Shown here in pieces: positions 1-57,600 of a stretch of 64,000 bases of DNA (position 1 is the first letter of the stretch; each line of letters starts with the position of its first letter). Source of the DNA: Oscillibacter sp. ER4 (GTDB lineage: Bacteria > Bacillota > Clostridia > Oscillospirales > Oscillospiraceae); assembly GCF_000765235.1 (NCBI RefSeq), contig NZ_JPJG01000002.1, forward strand, positions 1 through 64,000. Reading direction: 5' to 3'. Under the pieces are notes generated by a model. The model was not told where the DNA came from. It did not search any database and saw only the letters and a list, made by a program, of their open reading frames with translations. A program made the position numbers and the translations under genes.

Positions 1-445
1 TCCCTGCGATTCGAAACATTCAGCAACCGCGCCTTACTATCGTGAGGCGCGAGTGACGATTGCTTGGCGGCAGACTGCTTGCCGAATGCGGCTTTGCTGC
101 GCTCGCCGCATTGATTAGCACTCTGGTAGACGGAAATTAGTTTGCACTTCTACAAGATGGGCAGAGCGGCACCCGCAAGGGGTGTACCGCATCCGTAAGG
201 CGGCAAAGCCGCCAACGGCTGCGCAACAGCGGATAGTAGGAGCAGAGGCAAATCGTATAGCAACGCTAAACGCGGCTCCGCCGCGCGCAGGCATTCCCAT
301 TCCGGAGGCATAGGAGTCATTCAAGTCCGAGACTGCCAATCTAATCCCTTTCTCTTGGGGGGTGTAAGGGGGGGCATTCTCTTTCCGCGGAAAGAGAATG
401 GCCCCCCTTCATTCGTGCAGCGACGTAGGCGCTGCGATTTTGATT
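1..445 (-). repeat. Family A dispersed structured repeat, copy A1 (cut by window edge)
   Basis: Non-coding GC-rich block that recurs four more times in the window; it lies in the opposite orientation to copies A3-A5 and is truncated on the left by the window edge. Recognisable modules: a hairpin of arms GCGCCT/AGGCGC near 30-50, an AATGCGGC/GCCGCATT stem near 90-120, a GCGGCACCC-GCAA-GGGGTG hairpin near 170-195, and a perfect 26-base palindrome at 375-400 (arms CATTCTCTTTCCG) flanked by G and C runs. Small ORFs inside it have no ribosome binding sites or recognisable products. Confidence 0.85.
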
Positions 446-7583: not shown

Positions 7584-7710
7584 AGTCATCCTCCCTTTTT
7601 GGGAGTTTGCCCCGCGGAGGGGCGAAATAACCGCTTTCATCCGGAGAAGTCTGGTTGAAATACATCAAAATCGCAGAAGTGAAAGGAGTTCATGGAGTTA
7701 CTCCATCATA

Positions 7711-7862
7711 AGCGCCAGCGCCCGCCTTTGGCGGGACGACGAGGTGGGAAGAGGATCGAAATTTCGGCGGATGCTTCCCCGTGCCCGTGGGCGCGCACAC
7801 AGCCGACAAACATGCGGGCGACCGCAGAACAAAGGGGCTGTGACCACGGGAAAAGCGACAAA
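7711..7862 (+). ncRNA. glmS ribozyme/riboswitch
   Basis: Matches the glmS catalytic RNA core: AGCGCC at 7711 with self-cleavage expected just before G7712, ACGACGAGG at 7736-7744, the conserved ATCGAAATTTCGGCGG stretch at 7755-7770 running into ATGC, and the later ACAAAGGGG-type and GACAAATG segments. It lies about 100-250 bases upstream of glmS. Glucosamine-6-phosphate acts as cofactor for cleavage, leading to mRNA decay. Recognised from motif order, not from a covariance search; the 3' boundary is approximate. Confidence 0.93.
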
Positions 7863-9837: not shown

Positions 9838-10420
9838 CGCCCGCAGGGCGCACTCTATTATCCCCCACACCGTGTGGGGGACGCGGGAAAGGGGGATATT
9901 CTCTTTCTCGAAAGAGAATATCCCCCTTACACCCCCAAGAGAAAGGACGAGGGGAGCCCCCCCTCGACCCCCAACATTGGCAGTTTGCAGCTTGAATAAC
10001 TGCACGCGCTGCGCAGTGTGGGTGCGGTGTACATGGCTGCGCCATGAATCCCTGCGATTCGGCACCGATTGCAACTGCGCCTTACTATCGTGAGGCGCGA
10101 GTGACGTTTGTCTGGCGACAGACTGGCGGCATTGCTGACGCTCGCCGCATTGTGGAGACTGGCGATAGACGGGAATTACTGCGCACTTCTACAAGATCAG
10201 CAGAGCGGCAGCGGATAGTAGGAGCAAATCAAATCGTATAGCAACACCCAACGCGGCAACGCCGCGCGCAGGGAAGTGCAATCGGCAAGCGCCGCATCTC
10301 TTCGAGCTGCTCGCTTGCAATGGCGGGGTCAAGGGGCAGAGCCCCTTGCGTTCTCTTGGGGGTCTAAGGGGGCCATTCTCTCACGTGAGAGAATGGCCCC
10401 CTTTATTCGCCCCCCCTGCG
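9838..10420 (-). repeat. Family A dispersed structured repeat, copy A2
   Basis: About 580 non-coding bases between convergent genes. The left end has CCCCCACA-ccg-TGTGGGGG (9862-9880) and a perfect 36-base palindrome (9891-9926); the right end has AAGGGGC-aga-GCCCCTT (10331-10347) and a perfect 34-base palindrome (10368-10401). The middle carries the GCGCCT/AGGCGC hairpin and the ATGGC-tgc-GCCAT hairpin found in the other copies. Same orientation as A1. Confidence 0.88.
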
Positions 10421-17702: not shown

Positions 17703-18193
17703 TGGCAAAGAGACATTATATTCCCATCACGTCGGACGTGCTCGGCGTGAGCGACAGCAAATGCGCCTTCATCCGCAAGGTCATCCGCACGGCGCTCGCC
17801 GCCGAGGGTGTGGACTTTCCCTGTGAGATCGACGTGCGGCTGACGGACGATGAGACCATCCACGAGATCAACCGCGAAATGCGCGAGGTCGATCGCGCGA
17901 CGGACGTGCTGAGTTTCCCAATGTTCGAGCTTACCCCCGGCGAGCTGCCGGGTGAGGAGGACGCCGACCCCGGAACGGGCCTCGTCCCGCTCGGCGATAT
18001 GGTCATCTCGCTCGAGCACGTCGCCGCGCAGGCGAAGGAATACGGCCACTCCAACCGCCGCGAGCTGGCGTACCTCGTGACGCACTCGGTGCTTCACCTT
18101 CTGGGCTACGACCATCTGGACGAAGGGCCGATGAAAGCGCAGATGCGGGAACATGAAGAGGCAATTATGAAATTGCTCGAACTCGAGCGGTGA
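17702..18193 (+). CDS. ybeY: Endoribonuclease YbeY
   Basis: 163 residues. The zinc-binding motif HSVLHLLGYDH (H-x3-H-x5-H) near residues 118-130 identifies YbeY, a metal-dependent RNase involved in 16S rRNA 3'-end maturation and 70S quality control. The ATG at 17702 overlaps the phoH stop; a GTG three bases earlier is possible. It also has RATDVLSFPMF, which is typical of the family. In related genomes era follows closely; here about 700 bases of repeat A3 intervene. Confidence 0.96.
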   Translation: MAKRHYIPITSDVLGVSDSKCAFIRKVIRTALAAEGVDFPCEIDVRLTDDETIHEINREMREVDRATDVLSFPMFELTPGELPGEEDADPGTGLVPLGDMVISLEHVAAQAKEYGHSNRRELAYLVTHSVLHLLGYDHLDEGPMKAQMREHEEAIMKLLELER

Positions 18194-18895
18194 TAATTCC
18201 ACACAGGTGCGGAGGGCAATGCCGCCTGCGGGCGGCAACACCACACCCCCCATTTTCTATCCCGAGAAAGAAAACGGGCGGTGTGACCGTCCAAAAGAAA
18301 GGCGTTTGCATTGCAAGCGAGCAGCTCGAAGAGCTGCAATGCTTGCCGATTGCTACTTCCTGCGCGCGGCGGAGCCGCGTTAGCATTGCAAGACGATTTG
18401 GCTTGCTCCTATTATCCGCTGTTGCGCAGCCGTTGGCGGCTCTGCTGCCTTACGGATGCGGCACACCCCTTGCGGGTGCCGCTCTGCCCATCTTGTAGAA
18501 GTGCGCAGTAATTCCCGTCTGCTGCCAGTCTCCACAATGCGGCGAGCGCAGCAATGCCGCATTCCGCACGCAGTCTGCCGCCAGACAAACGTCACACGCG
18601 CCTCACGGCAGTAAGGCGCGGTTGCAAGACGTAACGACTCGCAGAAGATTCATGGCGAAGCCATGTACACCGCACTTACATTGCGCAGCGCGTGCAGTTA
18701 TTCAAGCGCCAGACCGACAATGTCGGGGGTCGAGGGGTTCTCCCCTCGCCTTTCTCTGGGGGTTCCAAAGGGGGTATTCTCTTTGGAAAGAAAATACCCC
18801 CTTTGTCCCGCGTCCCCACGGCAGTGGAACAGAATACCGCGCCCTTTGGGCATCCAAAAAGAGAATACAGCTTTCGCTGTATGAATAAAAAACGT
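18194..18895 (+). repeat. Family A dispersed structured repeat, copy A3
   Basis: Non-coding. From the left: GCCGC/GGCGGC-type hairpin, a near-palindrome around 18252-18282, GAGCAGCTCG hairpin near 18320, the shared CAGCCGTTGGCGGCTCTG module at about 18428-18446, GCGGCAC/GGGTGCCGC hairpin, TCTTGTAGAAGTGCGCAG, AATGCGGC/GCCGCATT stem, GCGCCT-cacggcagta-AGGCGC hairpin, ATGGC-gaa-GCCAT hairpin, GAGGGG-ttct-CCCCTC (18732-18747) and the end palindrome AAAGGGGGTATTCTCTTT (18767-18803, one mismatch). Confidence 0.9.
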
Positions 18896-18929
18896 TCAAC
18901 GAACAAAAGAAAGTTGAGGATCACCTATC

Positions 18930-19826
18930 ATGAACAAAACGAAGACCGCTATGATCACCGTCTGCGGACGGCCTAACGTCGGCAAATCCAGCCTGACGAA
19001 CGCCCTTGTGGGCGAGAAGATCGCCATCGTGTCGAACAAGCCCCAGACCACGCGCAACCGCATTTACGGCGTGATGAACCGCGGCGACACGCAGTACGTG
19101 CTGCTCGACACGCCTGGATTCCACAAGGCGCGCAACCGCCTGGGCGACTACATGGTCAAGGTCACGCGCGAATCCATCGCGGACGTGGACGCGGTGCTGC
19201 TGCTCGTTGAGCCAGTGGCGCACGTCGGCATCCCTGAGGCCGAGCTCATCGAAAAGATCAAGGCTTCTCATCTGCCGGCGATTTTGTGCATCAACAAGAT
19301 CGACACTGTCGAGAAAAAGGACGACCTGCTTGCCGTCATTGCGGCCTACAGCGAGGCGTATGCGTTTGACGCCATTATCCCCATTTCCGCGCGCACGCAC
19401 GAGGGGCTGGACGATCTGATGAACGAGCTCGGTAAGTACGCCTCTGAGGGCCCGCAGCTCTTCCCCGACGGCATGACGACTGACCAGCCCGACCGTCAGG
19501 TCGTGGGCGAGATCGTGCGCGAAAAGCTGCTGCGCAACCTCGATAAAGAGATCCCACACGGCACGGCCGTCGAGATCACGCGCTTTATTGAGCGCGACGA
19601 CGAGGTCATCGAGGTCGACGCGACCATCTACTGCGAAAAGGCGAGCCACAAGGGTATCATCATCGGCAAAAACGGCGCGATGCTCAAGAAGATCTCGACC
19701 GAGGCCCGCCGCGACATCGAGCGCTTCATGGGCACAAAGGTCTATCTCGAGACTTGGGTCAAGGTCAAGGAAAACTGGCGCGACAATATGAACTATATCA
19801 GAAGCTTCGGCTACGACGAACAGTAA
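18930..19826 (+). CDS. era: GTPase Era
   Basis: 298 residues, full length. G1 GRPNVGKSSL, G2 region KPQTTRN, G3 DTPG, G4 NKID and a C-terminal KH domain with the IGKNGAMLKKI motif. Era binds the 3' end of 16S rRNA and acts in 30S assembly, in the same process as YbeY. A GAGGAT site precedes the ATG. The last 18 codons and stop are duplicated downstream at 19987-20042. Repeat A3 lies before the gene, and recO is separated from it by a small gene and repeat A4. Confidence 0.97.
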   Translation: MNKTKTAMITVCGRPNVGKSSLTNALVGEKIAIVSNKPQTTRNRIYGVMNRGDTQYVLLDTPGFHKARNRLGDYMVKVTRESIADVDAVLLLVEPVAHVGIPEAELIEKIKASHLPAILCINKIDTVEKKDDLLAVIAAYSEAYAFDAIIPISARTHEGLDDLMNELGKYASEGPQLFPDGMTTDQPDRQVVGEIVREKLLRNLDKEIPHGTAVEITRFIERDDEVIEVDATIYCEKASHKGIIIGKNGAMLKKISTEARRDIERFMGTKVYLETWVKVKENWRDNMNYIRSFGYDEQ

Positions 19827-19827
19827 G
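19772..19827 (+). repeat. Direct repeat, copy 1: 3' end of era
   Basis: 56 bases covering the end of the era reading frame through the stop; identical to 19987-20042. Confidence 0.96.
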
Positions 19828-19986
19828 CTGCGCAGAAGAGGGGAAACGCCGGTTTTCCTGCGAGCGTGAGCAAGCCGCCGCGTGCGCGGCGTCATTCGGA
19901 GCGTCAGCGGAGAATGCCATGGGGCGAATTCATTTCGCCCGTCAATGGCTTAATGGGTTCCCGCGCGGCGGCAGGCCGCGTGGGAC
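19828..19986. other. Hairpin-rich 159-base insert between the two era 3' ends
   Basis: Contains four candidate stems in succession: GGAAAC/GTTTTCC, GCCGCCGCG/CGCGGCG, GGGCGAA-ttca-TTTCGCCC and CCGCGCGGC/GCCGCGTGG. There is no coding frame. Its neighbours on both sides are the same 56-base era end. Confidence 0.75.
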
Positions 19987-20042
19987 AAACTGGCGCGACA
20001 ATATGAACTATATCAGAAGCTTCGGCTACGACGAACAGTAAG
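19987..20042 (+). repeat. Direct repeat, copy 2: orphan era 3' end
   Basis: Identical to 19772-19827. Immediately followed by the ribosome binding site of the next gene, so this copy probably keeps the ancestral junction. Confidence 0.95.
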
Positions 20043-20052
20043 AAGGAAAAGC

Positions 20053-20241
20053 ATGTCCGATAAGAAAGAAAAGAAGACCGATGACAGCGGCAATTGTATG
20101 ATTTTTGGTATGCTGATCGGCATGAGCATCGGCTTTGCACTGGGGCAGCCGCTTTTTAACAACATGGCCGCCGGTATGGCGAGCGGTACGTGCATCGGTA
20201 TGGCGATCGGCAGCTTCATTGACTGCATCAAAAAGCAGTAA
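20053..20241 (+). CDS. Small glycine-zipper-like membrane protein
   Basis: 62 residues. Charged N-terminus (SDKKEKKTDDSGN), then two hydrophobic segments rich in Gly, Ala and Met with GxxxG-like spacing (MLIGMSIGFALG and MAAGMASGTCIGMAIGSF), ending in a basic tail. This suggests a small membrane hairpin that could pack or oligomerise. The ATG follows an AGAAGGAAA site. No named family was recognised. It sits between era and recO. Confidence 0.7.
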   Translation: MSDKKEKKTDDSGNCMIFGMLIGMSIGFALGQPLFNNMAAGMASGTCIGMAIGSFIDCIKKQ

Positions 20242-20369
20242 TAAATTTTCCCAGCCATAGTTCGCGGGAGTTTTCCTCATGCTAAGCATGAGGTGAGGGA
20301 TTTGCGAAACGGATATTTCGCGCTGTTTTTGAAAACCGGCGAGCCGATTTTTTATTTACTGGCAGTAAA

Positions 20370-21150
20370 TGATACCCATTGAGGGGTGAGGAATTTTTCC
20401 CCTGCACCGTGCAGGGGATGCGAGAAAGAGGAATATTCTCTTTCTCGAAAGAGAATTCTTTCTTTTTCGCACAGGTGCGAATGTCAATGCGGCACAAGTG
20501 CCGCGTGATGCGACCCCCATTTTCTTTCCCGAGAAAGAAAATGGGCGTCGCCCGTCCAAAAGAAAGGCGTTTCCCATTGCAAGCGAGCAGCTCGAAGAGC
20601 TGCAATGCTTGCCGATTGCACTGCCCTGTGCGCGGCGTTGCCGCGGTTGGCGTTGCTATACGATTTGACTTGCTCCTATCATCCGCTGTTGCGCAGCCGT
20701 TGGCGGCTCTGCTGCCTTACGGATGCGGCACACCCCTTGCGGGTGCCGCTCTGCCCATCTTGTAGAAGTACAGCCTAATTTCCGTCTACTGCCAGTCCCT
20801 ACAATGCGGCGAGCGCAGCAATGCCGCATTTGGCACGCAGTCTGCCGCCAAGCAAACGTCACTCGCGCCTCACGATAGTAAGGCGCGGTTGAGAGTTGTC
20901 ACGAATCGCAGAAGATTCATGGCGAAGCCATGTACACCGCACCCGATTCCGCAGGCTGCGCAGCTCTTCGAGCTACAAACTGCCAATGTGCGGGGTCAAG
21001 GGGGAAGCCCCCTTGCCTTTCTCCGGGGGTTCCAAAGGGGGTATTCTCTTTGGAAAGAGAATACCCCCTTTGACCGGCAGCAGCGCCTACGCGCTGCATT
21101 CCCCCTCCGCGCAGTGCGCGGAAAAAACCATCCTGCCTGCAAGGCAACCA
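20370..21150 (+). repeat. Family A dispersed structured repeat, copy A4
   Basis: Longest copy. The left end has CCCCTGCA-ccg-TGCAGGGG and a palindrome around 20434-20462, then CGGCA-caag-TGCCG and a CCCATTTTCTTTC/GAAAGAAAATGGG palindrome. The core is the same as A3, including the CAGCCGTTGGCGGCTCTG module. The right end has AAGGGGG-aag-CCCCCTT (20998-21014), the AAAGGGGGTATTCTCTTT palindrome (21034-21071) and a GCAGCGcctacGCGCTGC hairpin. Bases 20242-20369 before it hold no gene. Confidence 0.9.
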
Positions 21151-21191
21151 CCCTTTACACCCCTTGGTGTAAAACAATTTAGAGGAGTTTT

Positions 21192-21950
21192 ATGTCAGAA
21201 AAACTCGTGACTAAAGGCATCGTCCTTCGCGCGACGGCGACGAAGGAGGCCGACTACATATTGAATATTCTGACCGACTCGCTCGGGCGGATCGCGGTCG
21301 TGGCGCGCGGGGCGCGGCGCAAGGGAAGCCGCATCGCCGCGGGCAGTGAGCTTCTGGCCTTTTCCGAGCTCGTACTCTATCAGCGCGGGAACTGGTACTA
21401 CCTCGACGAGGCGTCGACGATCTCGCTGTTCGACGGTATCCGGCAGGACATTGAGCTACTGTCGCTCGCGTCGTATTTTGCCGAGATGACCGAGTGCGTC
21501 ACGGCGGAGGACGAGCCCGTGCCGGAGATCTTATCGCTGCTGCTCAACTCGCTCTATGCGCTCGACACGCTGCAAAAACCGCAGAGCATCGTCAAGGCGG
21601 CGTTTGAACTCAAGCTGCTTGCGCTCTCGGGCTACGAGCCGCTGCTCGACGGCTGCGCCGTCTGTGGCACGCACAACCCGAAAGAGCCGGTGTTTGACGC
21701 GCAGCAGGGCGTGCTGCTGTGCAAAGAATGTGCGGGCCACGGCGGGGGCGGCCTTCTGCCGCTGGACGCGGGCTCGTTCGCGGCGATGCGCCATGTGCTG
21801 TTTTCCGAGCCGAAGCGGATGCTGTCGTTTTCCCTCTCGGGCGAGACGGAAAAGCGCTTTGCCGCGGCGTGCGAGGTGTTTGCGCAGGTGCAGCTTGACC
21901 GGCGATTCAAAACGCTGGACTTCTACAAAAGCATGAAAATTGACAACTAA
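21192..21950 (+). CDS. recO: DNA repair protein RecO
   Basis: 252 residues, full length. An N-terminal OB fold (TKGIVLRATATKEADYILNIL, quoted here by its first motif TKGIVLRAT) is followed by a helical domain and a zinc-finger pair CAVCGTH and LLCKECAG. RecO loads RecA on SSB-coated single-stranded DNA with RecR in the RecFOR pathway. The ATG follows a GAGGAG site directly after repeat A4. In Clostridia recO normally follows era, so the order is preserved. Confidence 0.96.
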   Translation: MSEKLVTKGIVLRATATKEADYILNILTDSLGRIAVVARGARRKGSRIAAGSELLAFSELVLYQRGNWYYLDEASTISLFDGIRQDIELLSLASYFAEMTECVTAEDEPVPEILSLLLNSLYALDTLQKPQSIVKAAFELKLLALSGYEPLLDGCAVCGTHNPKEPVFDAQQGVLLCKECAGHGGGGLLPLDAGSFAAMRHVLFSEPKRMLSFSLSGETEKRFAAACEVFAQVQLDRRFKTLDFYKSMKIDN

Positions 21951-39040: not shown

Positions 39041-39250
39041 AGAAAGATGCGCTCCGCTTCGTGCCTTGCCGCCCGTAGGGCGACTGCGACACGTGCGGAG
39101 CGAGAAGTGTTTTTCCGGCGTACACGCCGCCGGAAAAACGGATTCCAATTTATTTCGCGTCTGCGGACGCCTGGGCAGCCGTTGGCGGCTCTGCCGCCTT
39201 ACGGATGCCGCGTACCCCTTGCGGGTAAAACTCTGCGAGGCTTTTTTAAC
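39041..39250 (+). repeat. Family B structured repeat, copy B2
   Basis: Non-coding. GAGAAAG, GCGCTCCGC, GTGCCT, GTGCGGAGCGAGAAGTG, variable stem GTTTTTCCGGCG (39109-39120) / CGCCGGAAAAAC (39128-39139), TTTATTTC, GCGTC-tgcg-GACGC hairpin, then the CAGCCGTTGGCGGCTCTG module shared with family A, and AAACTCTGCGAGGCTTTTTT at the end. Confidence 0.87.
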
Positions 39251-56939: not shown

Positions 56940-57600
56940 CTTTATGCCCCTGCACCGTGCAGGGGACGCGGTTAAGGGGGATATTCTCTTTCCGAGGAAA
57001 GGGAATATCCCCCTTTGACCCCCGAGAGAAAGGGATTAGATTGGCAGTCTGGAGCTCGAACAATCTTTATGCCTCCGGAATGAAAATGCCTGCGCGCGGC
57101 GGAGCCGCGTTTAGCGTTGCTATACGATTTGCCTCTGCTCCTACTATCCGCTGTTGCGCAGCCGTTGGCAGCTTTGCCGCCTTACGGATGCGGTACACCC
57201 CTTGCGGGTGCCGCTCTGCCCATCTTGTAGAAGTGCGCAGTAATTCCCGTCTACCGCCAGTCTCCACAATGCGGCGAGCGAAGCAATGCCGCTATTTCGC
57301 ACGCAGTCCGCCGCCAAGCAAACGTCACTCGCGCCTCACGATAGTAAGGCGCGGTTGCAAAACGGTCAAGATTCGCAGGGATTCATGGCGAAGCCATGTA
57401 CACCGCACTTACATTGCGCAGCGTTTGCAGTTCTTCAAGCTGCAAACTGCCAATGTCGGGGGTCGAGGGGACCTCCCCTCGCGTTCTCTTGGGGGTTCAA
57501 GGGGGATATTCTCTCACGTGAGAGAATATCCCCCGTTTCCCGTGCAGCGCCTCCGGCGCTGCTTTTCCCCCTGCGCCCTGTGGGCGCAAAAAGCGGTATT
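56940..57600 (+). repeat. Family A dispersed structured repeat, copy A5
   Basis: Non-coding. Left: CCCCTGCA-ccg-TGCAGGGG (56947-56965), AAGGGGGATATTC palindrome (56974-57016, one mismatch). Core: CTACTATCCGCTGTTGCGCAGCC, GCGGTAC/GGGTGCCGC, TCTTGTAGAAGTGCGCAG, GCGCCT-cacgatagta-AGGCGC, ATGGC-gaa-GCCAT. Right: GAGGGG-acct-CCCCTC (57465-57480), perfect 34-base palindrome (57501-57534), GCAGCGcctccgGCGCTGC. Confidence 0.9.

Follow-up and report, generated by a model that had tools for sequence, protein, structure and literature searches.

What are the structured repeats that lie dispersed between the genes of Oscillibacter sp. ER4? The question was raised by the window analysed here, the whole stretch of 64,000 nucleotides at contig C45:1-64000 of a 2.73 Mb genome (130 contigs, completeness 98%). 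The era protein encoded there shares 90% identity with its counterpart in Oscillibacter sp. MSJ-31 and 88% with the one in O. valericigenes An907, which agrees with a place in or very near Oscillibacter. A sequence-only reading had described five copies of a repeat (family A) in the window, in both orientations, and had proposed a folded RNA or a cruciform DNA under selection, with mobility to explain the copies. All five were recovered when the window was compared with itself by BLAST (approximately 1-410, 9877-10404, 18247-18811, 20514-21078 and 56976-57592), together with a solitary piece of 55 nt. We consider it reasonably probable that family A is the cargo-less form, resembling a miniature inverted-repeat transposable element (MITE), of small transposase-less mobile cassettes in Oscillibacter. 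A high copy number, a fixed size, inverted modules, cargo bracketed by them here and in two congeners, absence from the ybeY-era spacers of relatives and covariation of the end hairpins were observed.

Five copies was correct for the window and far too low as a total. A search of the complete genome found the core motif (up to 2 mismatches) at no fewer than 52 places, roughly ten times as many and far above chance; the true number is higher, because the search missed copies that end before this motif (L118, L120, contig ends). With the same tolerance, the half-motif of the end hairpin matched 114 forward and 111 reverse places, while its reversed control matched 3 and 4. The exact 22-base core had no match in the contigs of other genomes or in viral contigs. 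The unit measured about 505 bp between two end hairpins of 18-20 bp. Among the 27 copies in which both end hairpins were measured, the end-to-end length was 488-525 bp in 23 and 561-566 bp in four, the latter fitting the presence of an optional insert of 55-57 nt.

The anatomy of the unit is best followed in copy A3 (18194-18895, forward strand, as are all features of it given here), located between genes that we take to be YbeY-like and era; these names, like yqzL-like and recO below, were given by recognition, without a family search. From left to right, A3 consists of an outer hairpin, an end hairpin (18242-18285, the CACACCCCCC..GGTGTG allele as read by eye), a left module, the optional hairpin insert (18423-18477), a central hairpin (AATGCGGCGAGCG..AGCAATGCCGCATT, 18536-18563), a right module, a second end hairpin (18766-18805) and further outer hairpins. 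The right half (18536-18811) is an end module, F1, and contains a GAGGGG/CCCCTC stem (18731-18748) that is terminator-like by consensus. Read in reverse, the left module forms another type of end module, F2, and the two modules meet at the central hairpin. The insert was absent from most of the first 30 copies aligned, and it occurs alone at 39172-39226 (forward strand), the solitary piece found by BLAST; short pieces similar to this solo copy were seen in two genomes of other genera (G022 and G031).

The remaining copies in the window are A1 (1-445, reverse strand, cut by the contig start, end hairpin at 366-409), A2 (9838-10420, reverse strand, end hairpins at 9888-9928 and 10366-10403, outer hairpin at 9861-9881), A4 (20370-21150, forward strand, between yqzL-like and recO-like genes, end hairpins at 20510-20551 and 21033-21072, outer hairpin at 20398-20418) and A5 (56940-57600, forward strand, end hairpins at 56974-57015 and 57499-57536). 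The stems singled out earlier were found as described, both the end hairpins with GTA/TAC, GATA/TATC and GCCA/TGGC and the outer stems CCCCTGCA/TGCAGGGG and CCCCCACA/TGTGGGGG.

The same end modules bracket genes elsewhere in the genome. Ten of the 52 copies, all at contig ends, were too short for alignment; among the 42 aligned, 38 had the cargo-less F2-F1 form and four belonged to cassettes in which the modules enclose two divergent genes, one for a repressor of the XRE or ribbon-helix-helix (RHH) type and one for a protein of 50-67 aa. F1 stands on both sides of the gene pair on contigs C46 (inverted arms of 297 nt, 80%) and C98 (184 nt, 82%) and on one side on C52, where it faces F2 (locus L060); the central hairpin of family A is the inner boundary of F1 in these cargo cassettes. 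In all three, one gene of the divergent pair is an open reading frame (ORF) of about 50-66 aa, and the other codes for a DNA-binding protein, which is of the XRE type on C52 (HTH_26, E 6e-15). The C98 and C46 proteins look RHH-like only through weak matches to PHROG repressors (E 3e-6 and 3e-4; in Pfam, RHH_1 below the cut-off in one and no match in the other). A third end type (111 nt, 88%) flanks a 51-aa ORF and an XRE gene (HTH_26, E 4.5e-9) on C47, where the contig end truncates the right-hand end; on C111 one end of this third type follows a 67-aa ORF. Four of the small ORFs were scanned in Pfam, NCBIfam and PHROGs, with a best match of E 0.087.

Outside the core copies, 13 places were read among the end-hairpin places listed. 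Contig ends cut off two F1 ends (L118, L120) and two F2 ends (L113, and by eye L116) among them. Two places are F2-F2 forms that hold no cargo (L112, L119), three carry ends of the third type (L115, L117, L122) and one is the F2 side of the C52 cassette. The others are an A-like form whose middle has diverged (L123), a copy interrupted by a transposase gene of the IS66 type (L121) and a hairpin in which no module was recognised by eye (L114). We propose that a cassette would consist of two inverted end modules around the divergent repressor (XRE or RHH) and small-protein genes. Each module terminates on its outer side in a hairpin of 18-20 bp, followed by smaller ones, and family A would be F2 joined to F1, without intervening genes, at the central GCGGCGAG hairpin. 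That the ends are shared was missed by the sequence-only reading; it moves the interpretation away from a folded RNA and towards the termini of a mobile cassette. The earlier reading holds in part, with the compensatory change in the end hairpins on its side.

Similar cassettes were present in two congeners. In G013, five inverted-repeat pairs each surround a repressor gene and a small ORF. The repressors carried HTH_3 on C65, HTH_3 just under the cut-off on C224 and Arc-type domains on C62 and C58; the C245 repressor had no Pfam match and looks RHH-like by eye. C50 provides a sixth place, which has one end only, an HTH protein and a small ORF that is broken. Arms of the same cassette agreed at 0.67-0.96, compared to a mean of 0.76 across cassettes, and each of the six left ends comes after a sequence-variable hairpin and then TTGTTCGGCGCG. 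A query with the G013 repeat in ten congeners gave strong matches in G013 only and weak ones in G006 and G007. In G005, the small gene pair at all three loci read for genes (L031, L041, L042) stood between inverted modules and included a protein of the HTH or Arc type.

The small protein was found at E 1e-3 in 26 of 60 genomes (this one, 15 of 17 congeners and 10 of 42 others), while in a class-wide sample, with another query and at E 1e-4, it was found in 1 of 291 genomes, this one; it is thus a lineage-limited family. Some further interpretations were tried and set aside. A phage or plasmid origin found no backing, since the G013 small protein had no match at E 1e-3 in phages or plasmids; it also had no relative in viral contigs. 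A role in defence was likewise dropped, two XRE proteins giving weak matches only. As a candidate end motif for the whole order, GCGGCAGCGGAANNAGANG (one mismatch) was repeated only in G109 (21 places, control 2) and G022 (10 places, control 0); each of the other 148 genomes had at most 2 places, with controls of up to 3, and the ER4 genome had 1, with a control of 2. The motif is not order-wide, so that homology of the ends across genera is a suggestion made by eye only. G109 and G022, which belong to other genera of the same family, contain many GCGGCAGCGGAAAGAGAAG copies, by eye in intergenic repeats with purine-rich hairpins.

Mobility had been suggested to explain the copy number, and the empty sites that it predicts were looked for in relatives. 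The ybeY-era spacer, which holds A3, measures 736 bp in the window and lacked an A element in all ten relatives read, where it measured 84, 57 and 50 bp (L075, L076 and L105), -4 to 63 bp (six relatives) and 201 bp (L077). A3, A4 and A5 had no match at E 1e-3 in any of 35 named era loci, including the 201-bp insert before era in L077, in which a hairpin resembles the left end hairpin of A4 by eye. Presence and absence at this orthologous site were observed, and from them we infer the direction of the change. Both the dispersal and the absence agree with mobility.

The placement of the copies relative to genes was also uneven. A home-made gene caller placed genes on either side of 37 copies (four being cassette halves beside their own cargo). 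Of these, 16 lay in convergent, 20 in tandem and one in divergent spacers; the 56 other spacers of the window were 7 convergent, 42 tandem and 7 divergent. The convergent excess (16 of 37 vs. 7 of 56) gave a Fisher p of 0.001, and of 0.007 without the four cassette halves (13 of 33). Copies downstream of genes would be expected if these elements were RNA structures of the 3' untranslated region (insulators, terminators or mRNA stabilisers) under host selection, with folding of the transcript driving the covariation. The genes flanking A3 point the same way, as do those flanking A4, so that transcription would run through both elements, and the region 18000-21400 contained 9 terminator-like sites, compared to 4.5 (sd 2.3) after shuffling. 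Three of the nine are in the elements (the GAGGGG stem and an outer hairpin of A3, and an outer hairpin of A4), but A3 and A4 contribute none of their four end hairpins, and in tandem spacers one orientation occurs 11 times and the other 9 times. Since the ybeY-era spacer of the relatives read holds no A element and the same modules bracket gene cassettes, we regard this explanation as unlikely, although the compensatory change in the end hairpins and the hairpins in every right flank tested, both described next, fit it.

Compensatory change in the paired arms was confirmed at the ends of the elements; in their interior, apart from one pair, the evidence for it was thin. From 89 listed end hairpins, 55 (54 distinct) were aligned, repeats of one sequence and wrong picks being excluded. 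Two-sided change was present at 18 of the 20 pairs, with 207 two-sided cells compared to 57.1 (sd 6.9) in shuffles, and the signal was lost when the register was slid; 97.5% of the cells were paired, a percentage biased upward by the choice of hairpins by stem length. In the interior, the GAGGGG/CCCCTC stem had one pair with two-sided change in 14 of about 40 copies. The CGCGGC/GCCGCG stem showed such change in one or two copies at three of its six pairs, while the stems CGCGCC/GGCGCG, CATGGC/GCCATG and GCGGCGAG../..GCCGC were near-invariant (0-1 two-sided copies per pair). A consensus fold of 36 copies added two or three poorly kept two-sided pairs per strand. Covariation along the whole 0.6-0.8 kb, as had been claimed, was not supported, the variation in the interior being local. 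Outside the end hairpins, a perfect hairpin of at least 6 pairs was present within 90 bp in all 45 right flanks tested (45 of the 47 right-end picks; right flanks only), with 85 hairpins in total compared to 5.0 (sd 2.1) in shuffles. The same test gave 15 vs. 2.7 in 26 other spacers of the window.

Rfam 15 at its gathering score recognised only the glmS ribozyme in the window and nothing in family A, in keeping with the earlier statement that no named family was recognised. Permissive Rfam scans of one and of eight loci returned hairpin matches, many of them microRNA models; the Clostridiales-2 RNA model reached 21.8 and 23.8 bits against a threshold of 58.6. The inverted ends and the dispersal might also suggest that the elements descend by decay from a known insertion sequence, intron or REPIN, a question on which these searches bear. 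No Rfam family, introns included, was present in the window except glmS, with no insertion-sequence library searched; long interior blocks are conserved across the copies, and the Y1 transposase (PF01797) had no match in the 98% complete genome, while 5 of 14 genomes searched as a control did have matches. We consider decay from such an element highly improbable.

If family A is indeed the cargo-less form of a mobile cassette, a recombinase acting in trans may recognise its hairpin ends, either folded in a single strand or extruded as a cruciform; copies that landed downstream of genes would survive best, and recombination among copies would keep shuffling them. Several observations weigh against such a history. 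No helper or autonomous partner was recognised in the 13 places read among the end-hairpin places listed, and one may lie outside them. The sole complete transposase gene seen within such ends is of the IS66 type (553 codons, PF03050, E 2.8e-94); it splits the F1 module of an A copy (L121, L069; G000:C106:56360-59147) and is read as a later insertion. A 96-codon fragment with a transposase domain (DUF772, E 3e-8; L122:390-677) lies beside the one-ended C111 cassette. These two genes interrupt or adjoin single elements and tie no enzyme to the family. No target-site duplication was found, the longest word shared by the flanks being 7.63 in matched and 7.68 in mismatched pairs (n=27), though an old or short duplication could escape because the outer hairpins blur the element boundaries. 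There was no sign of a recent jump, because the closest pair of copies is only 0.90-0.91 identical. On C2, a divergent pair of an XRE-like gene and a small ORF adjoins an A copy, and no matching repeat was found on its far side. In G013, the arms of two of the five cassettes (0.67 and 0.70) agree less than the mean between cassettes, and the small ORF on C161 had no repeat match; most small-ORF loci of other genomes lacked a long inverted repeat. Finally, the deficit of divergent sites was not significant by count (1 of 37 vs. 7 of 56, p 0.14; 0.25 without the cassette halves); by share of length it gave p 0.002 (0.004 without them). The C2 pair is locus L126, at approximately 10.0-10.7 kb.

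The missing helper and target-site duplication would be natural if the repeats resembled repetitive extragenic palindromes and bacterial interspersed mosaic elements (REP/BIME), with no mobility enzyme, and were spread and homogenised by homologous recombination and replication slippage only. The outer hairpins are of REP-like size, and the copies show a free mosaicism that this process would also produce. The uniform unit length and the inverted modules around cassettes point instead to a defined unit, and some fifty sites would hardly be reached by homologous recombination alone; we judge this explanation decidedly unlikely. As movers, two reverse transcriptase matches (C74, C98) were considered and set aside, nothing tying them to the elements. 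Integron attC cassettes were set aside as well, as the bracketed cassettes read carry two inverted ends; an integrase was not searched for.

Among known systems, family A is best classed as a variant of the MITE or mobile insertion cassette, with two unexplained features. It has no transposase inside (the IS66-type gene on C106 interrupts a module), inverted ends and many dispersed copies. MITEs and the mobile insertion cassettes of the MIC231 type in Bacillus cereus (PMC6542083) likewise have inverted ends and no transposase inside, come in cargo-less and cargo-bearing forms with the same ends, and are dispersed and absent at the sites of relatives. Unlike them, family A has no target-site duplication found and no helper transposase known, and its ends are covarying hairpin modules of about 100-300 nt, whereas those of MITEs and mobile insertion cassettes are short fixed terminal repeats. 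The Tn3-derived TIMEs are likewise non-autonomous, mosaic elements whose ends bracket different gene modules, with 38-bp Tn3-type ends and duplications of 5-6 bp (PMC4133298); in family A no duplication was found. REPINs, extragenic palindromes moved by RAYTs, share with it the inverted palindrome pairs and the position downstream of genes and in convergent spacers (PMC3116915, PMC3733652). The family A unit of about 505 bp and the lack of a Y1 transposase in its genome separate the two. By eye, the majority alleles have no GTAG/CGTC tag beside the hairpin, and the CACACCGCCC allele has an adjoining ACCGTCC. Like family A, the bcr1 repeat of Bacillus cereus and the stem-loop repeat families are intergenic, structured and mobile-like (PMC6542083, PMC2267715). 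They are regarded as non-coding units, whereas family A ends also bracket gene pairs. No description of the present elements was recognised among the open-licence papers listed.

The interiors of the copies turned out to be mosaics. Linkage was analysed in 36 of the 42 aligned copies, the others being the four cassette halves and two copies whose right end is interrupted; the 36 had a mean pairwise identity of 0.817 (sd 0.034, maximum 0.90). Over 80 variable interior sites, r2 was 0.233 at 1-2 bp and had dropped to the permutation level by 11-15 bp, which identifies the copies as mosaics; small excesses followed at 16-45 bp (z 2.2-3.0), with none above z 1.4 beyond. Words of 6-12 bases were common to copies beyond permutation (12 distinct words in columns 172-178, compared to 21.5), and neighbouring words combine freely. 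The shared words speak for exchange or shared descent per block, and long recombination among the copies gives such a pattern. A similar picture would arise if copying switched templates often, or if sites were saturated and multi-base changes occurred locally. Assembly chimeras seem unlikely, because linkage vanishes over distances below an assembly k-mer. More speculatively, and improbable in our view, each new copy, rather than arising by cut-and-paste from a single master, might be synthesised from several templates (for example by template switching on single-stranded DNA or RNA) and be born mosaic at a grain of about 10 bp; its hairpin ends would be recognised by their shape, and the transposase-less cassettes would have ends that evolve by compensatory change in each species and a two-gene cargo that is recognisable genus-wide.

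Some other features of the window lie near the elements. The 3' end of era is present as an exact duplication of 56 bp (19772-19827 and 19987-20042) around a spacer of 159 bp, and in a Ruminococcaceae genome (RUG12832, L083) the 3' end of that genome's era gene stands three times in tandem, the spacer being similar by eye. Between era and the yqzL-like gene lies a glycine-rich frame of 62 codons (20054-20242), with none seen by eye in the printed regions downstream of era in relatives. A 160-bp direct repeat (1747-1904 and 2397-2555, 91% identical) includes a terminator-like hairpin, and the glmS ribozyme recognised by Rfam (7700-7852) is located just upstream of a 635-codon reading frame.

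With 36 copies in one genome and almost no linkage past approximately 10-15 bp, the grain of recombination or copying among dispersed repeats would become directly measurable in this organism from long-read genomes of sister strains. Family A represents a large family of structured intergenic repeats in common gut bacteria, tied to two-gene cassettes that encode a protein of no known family.

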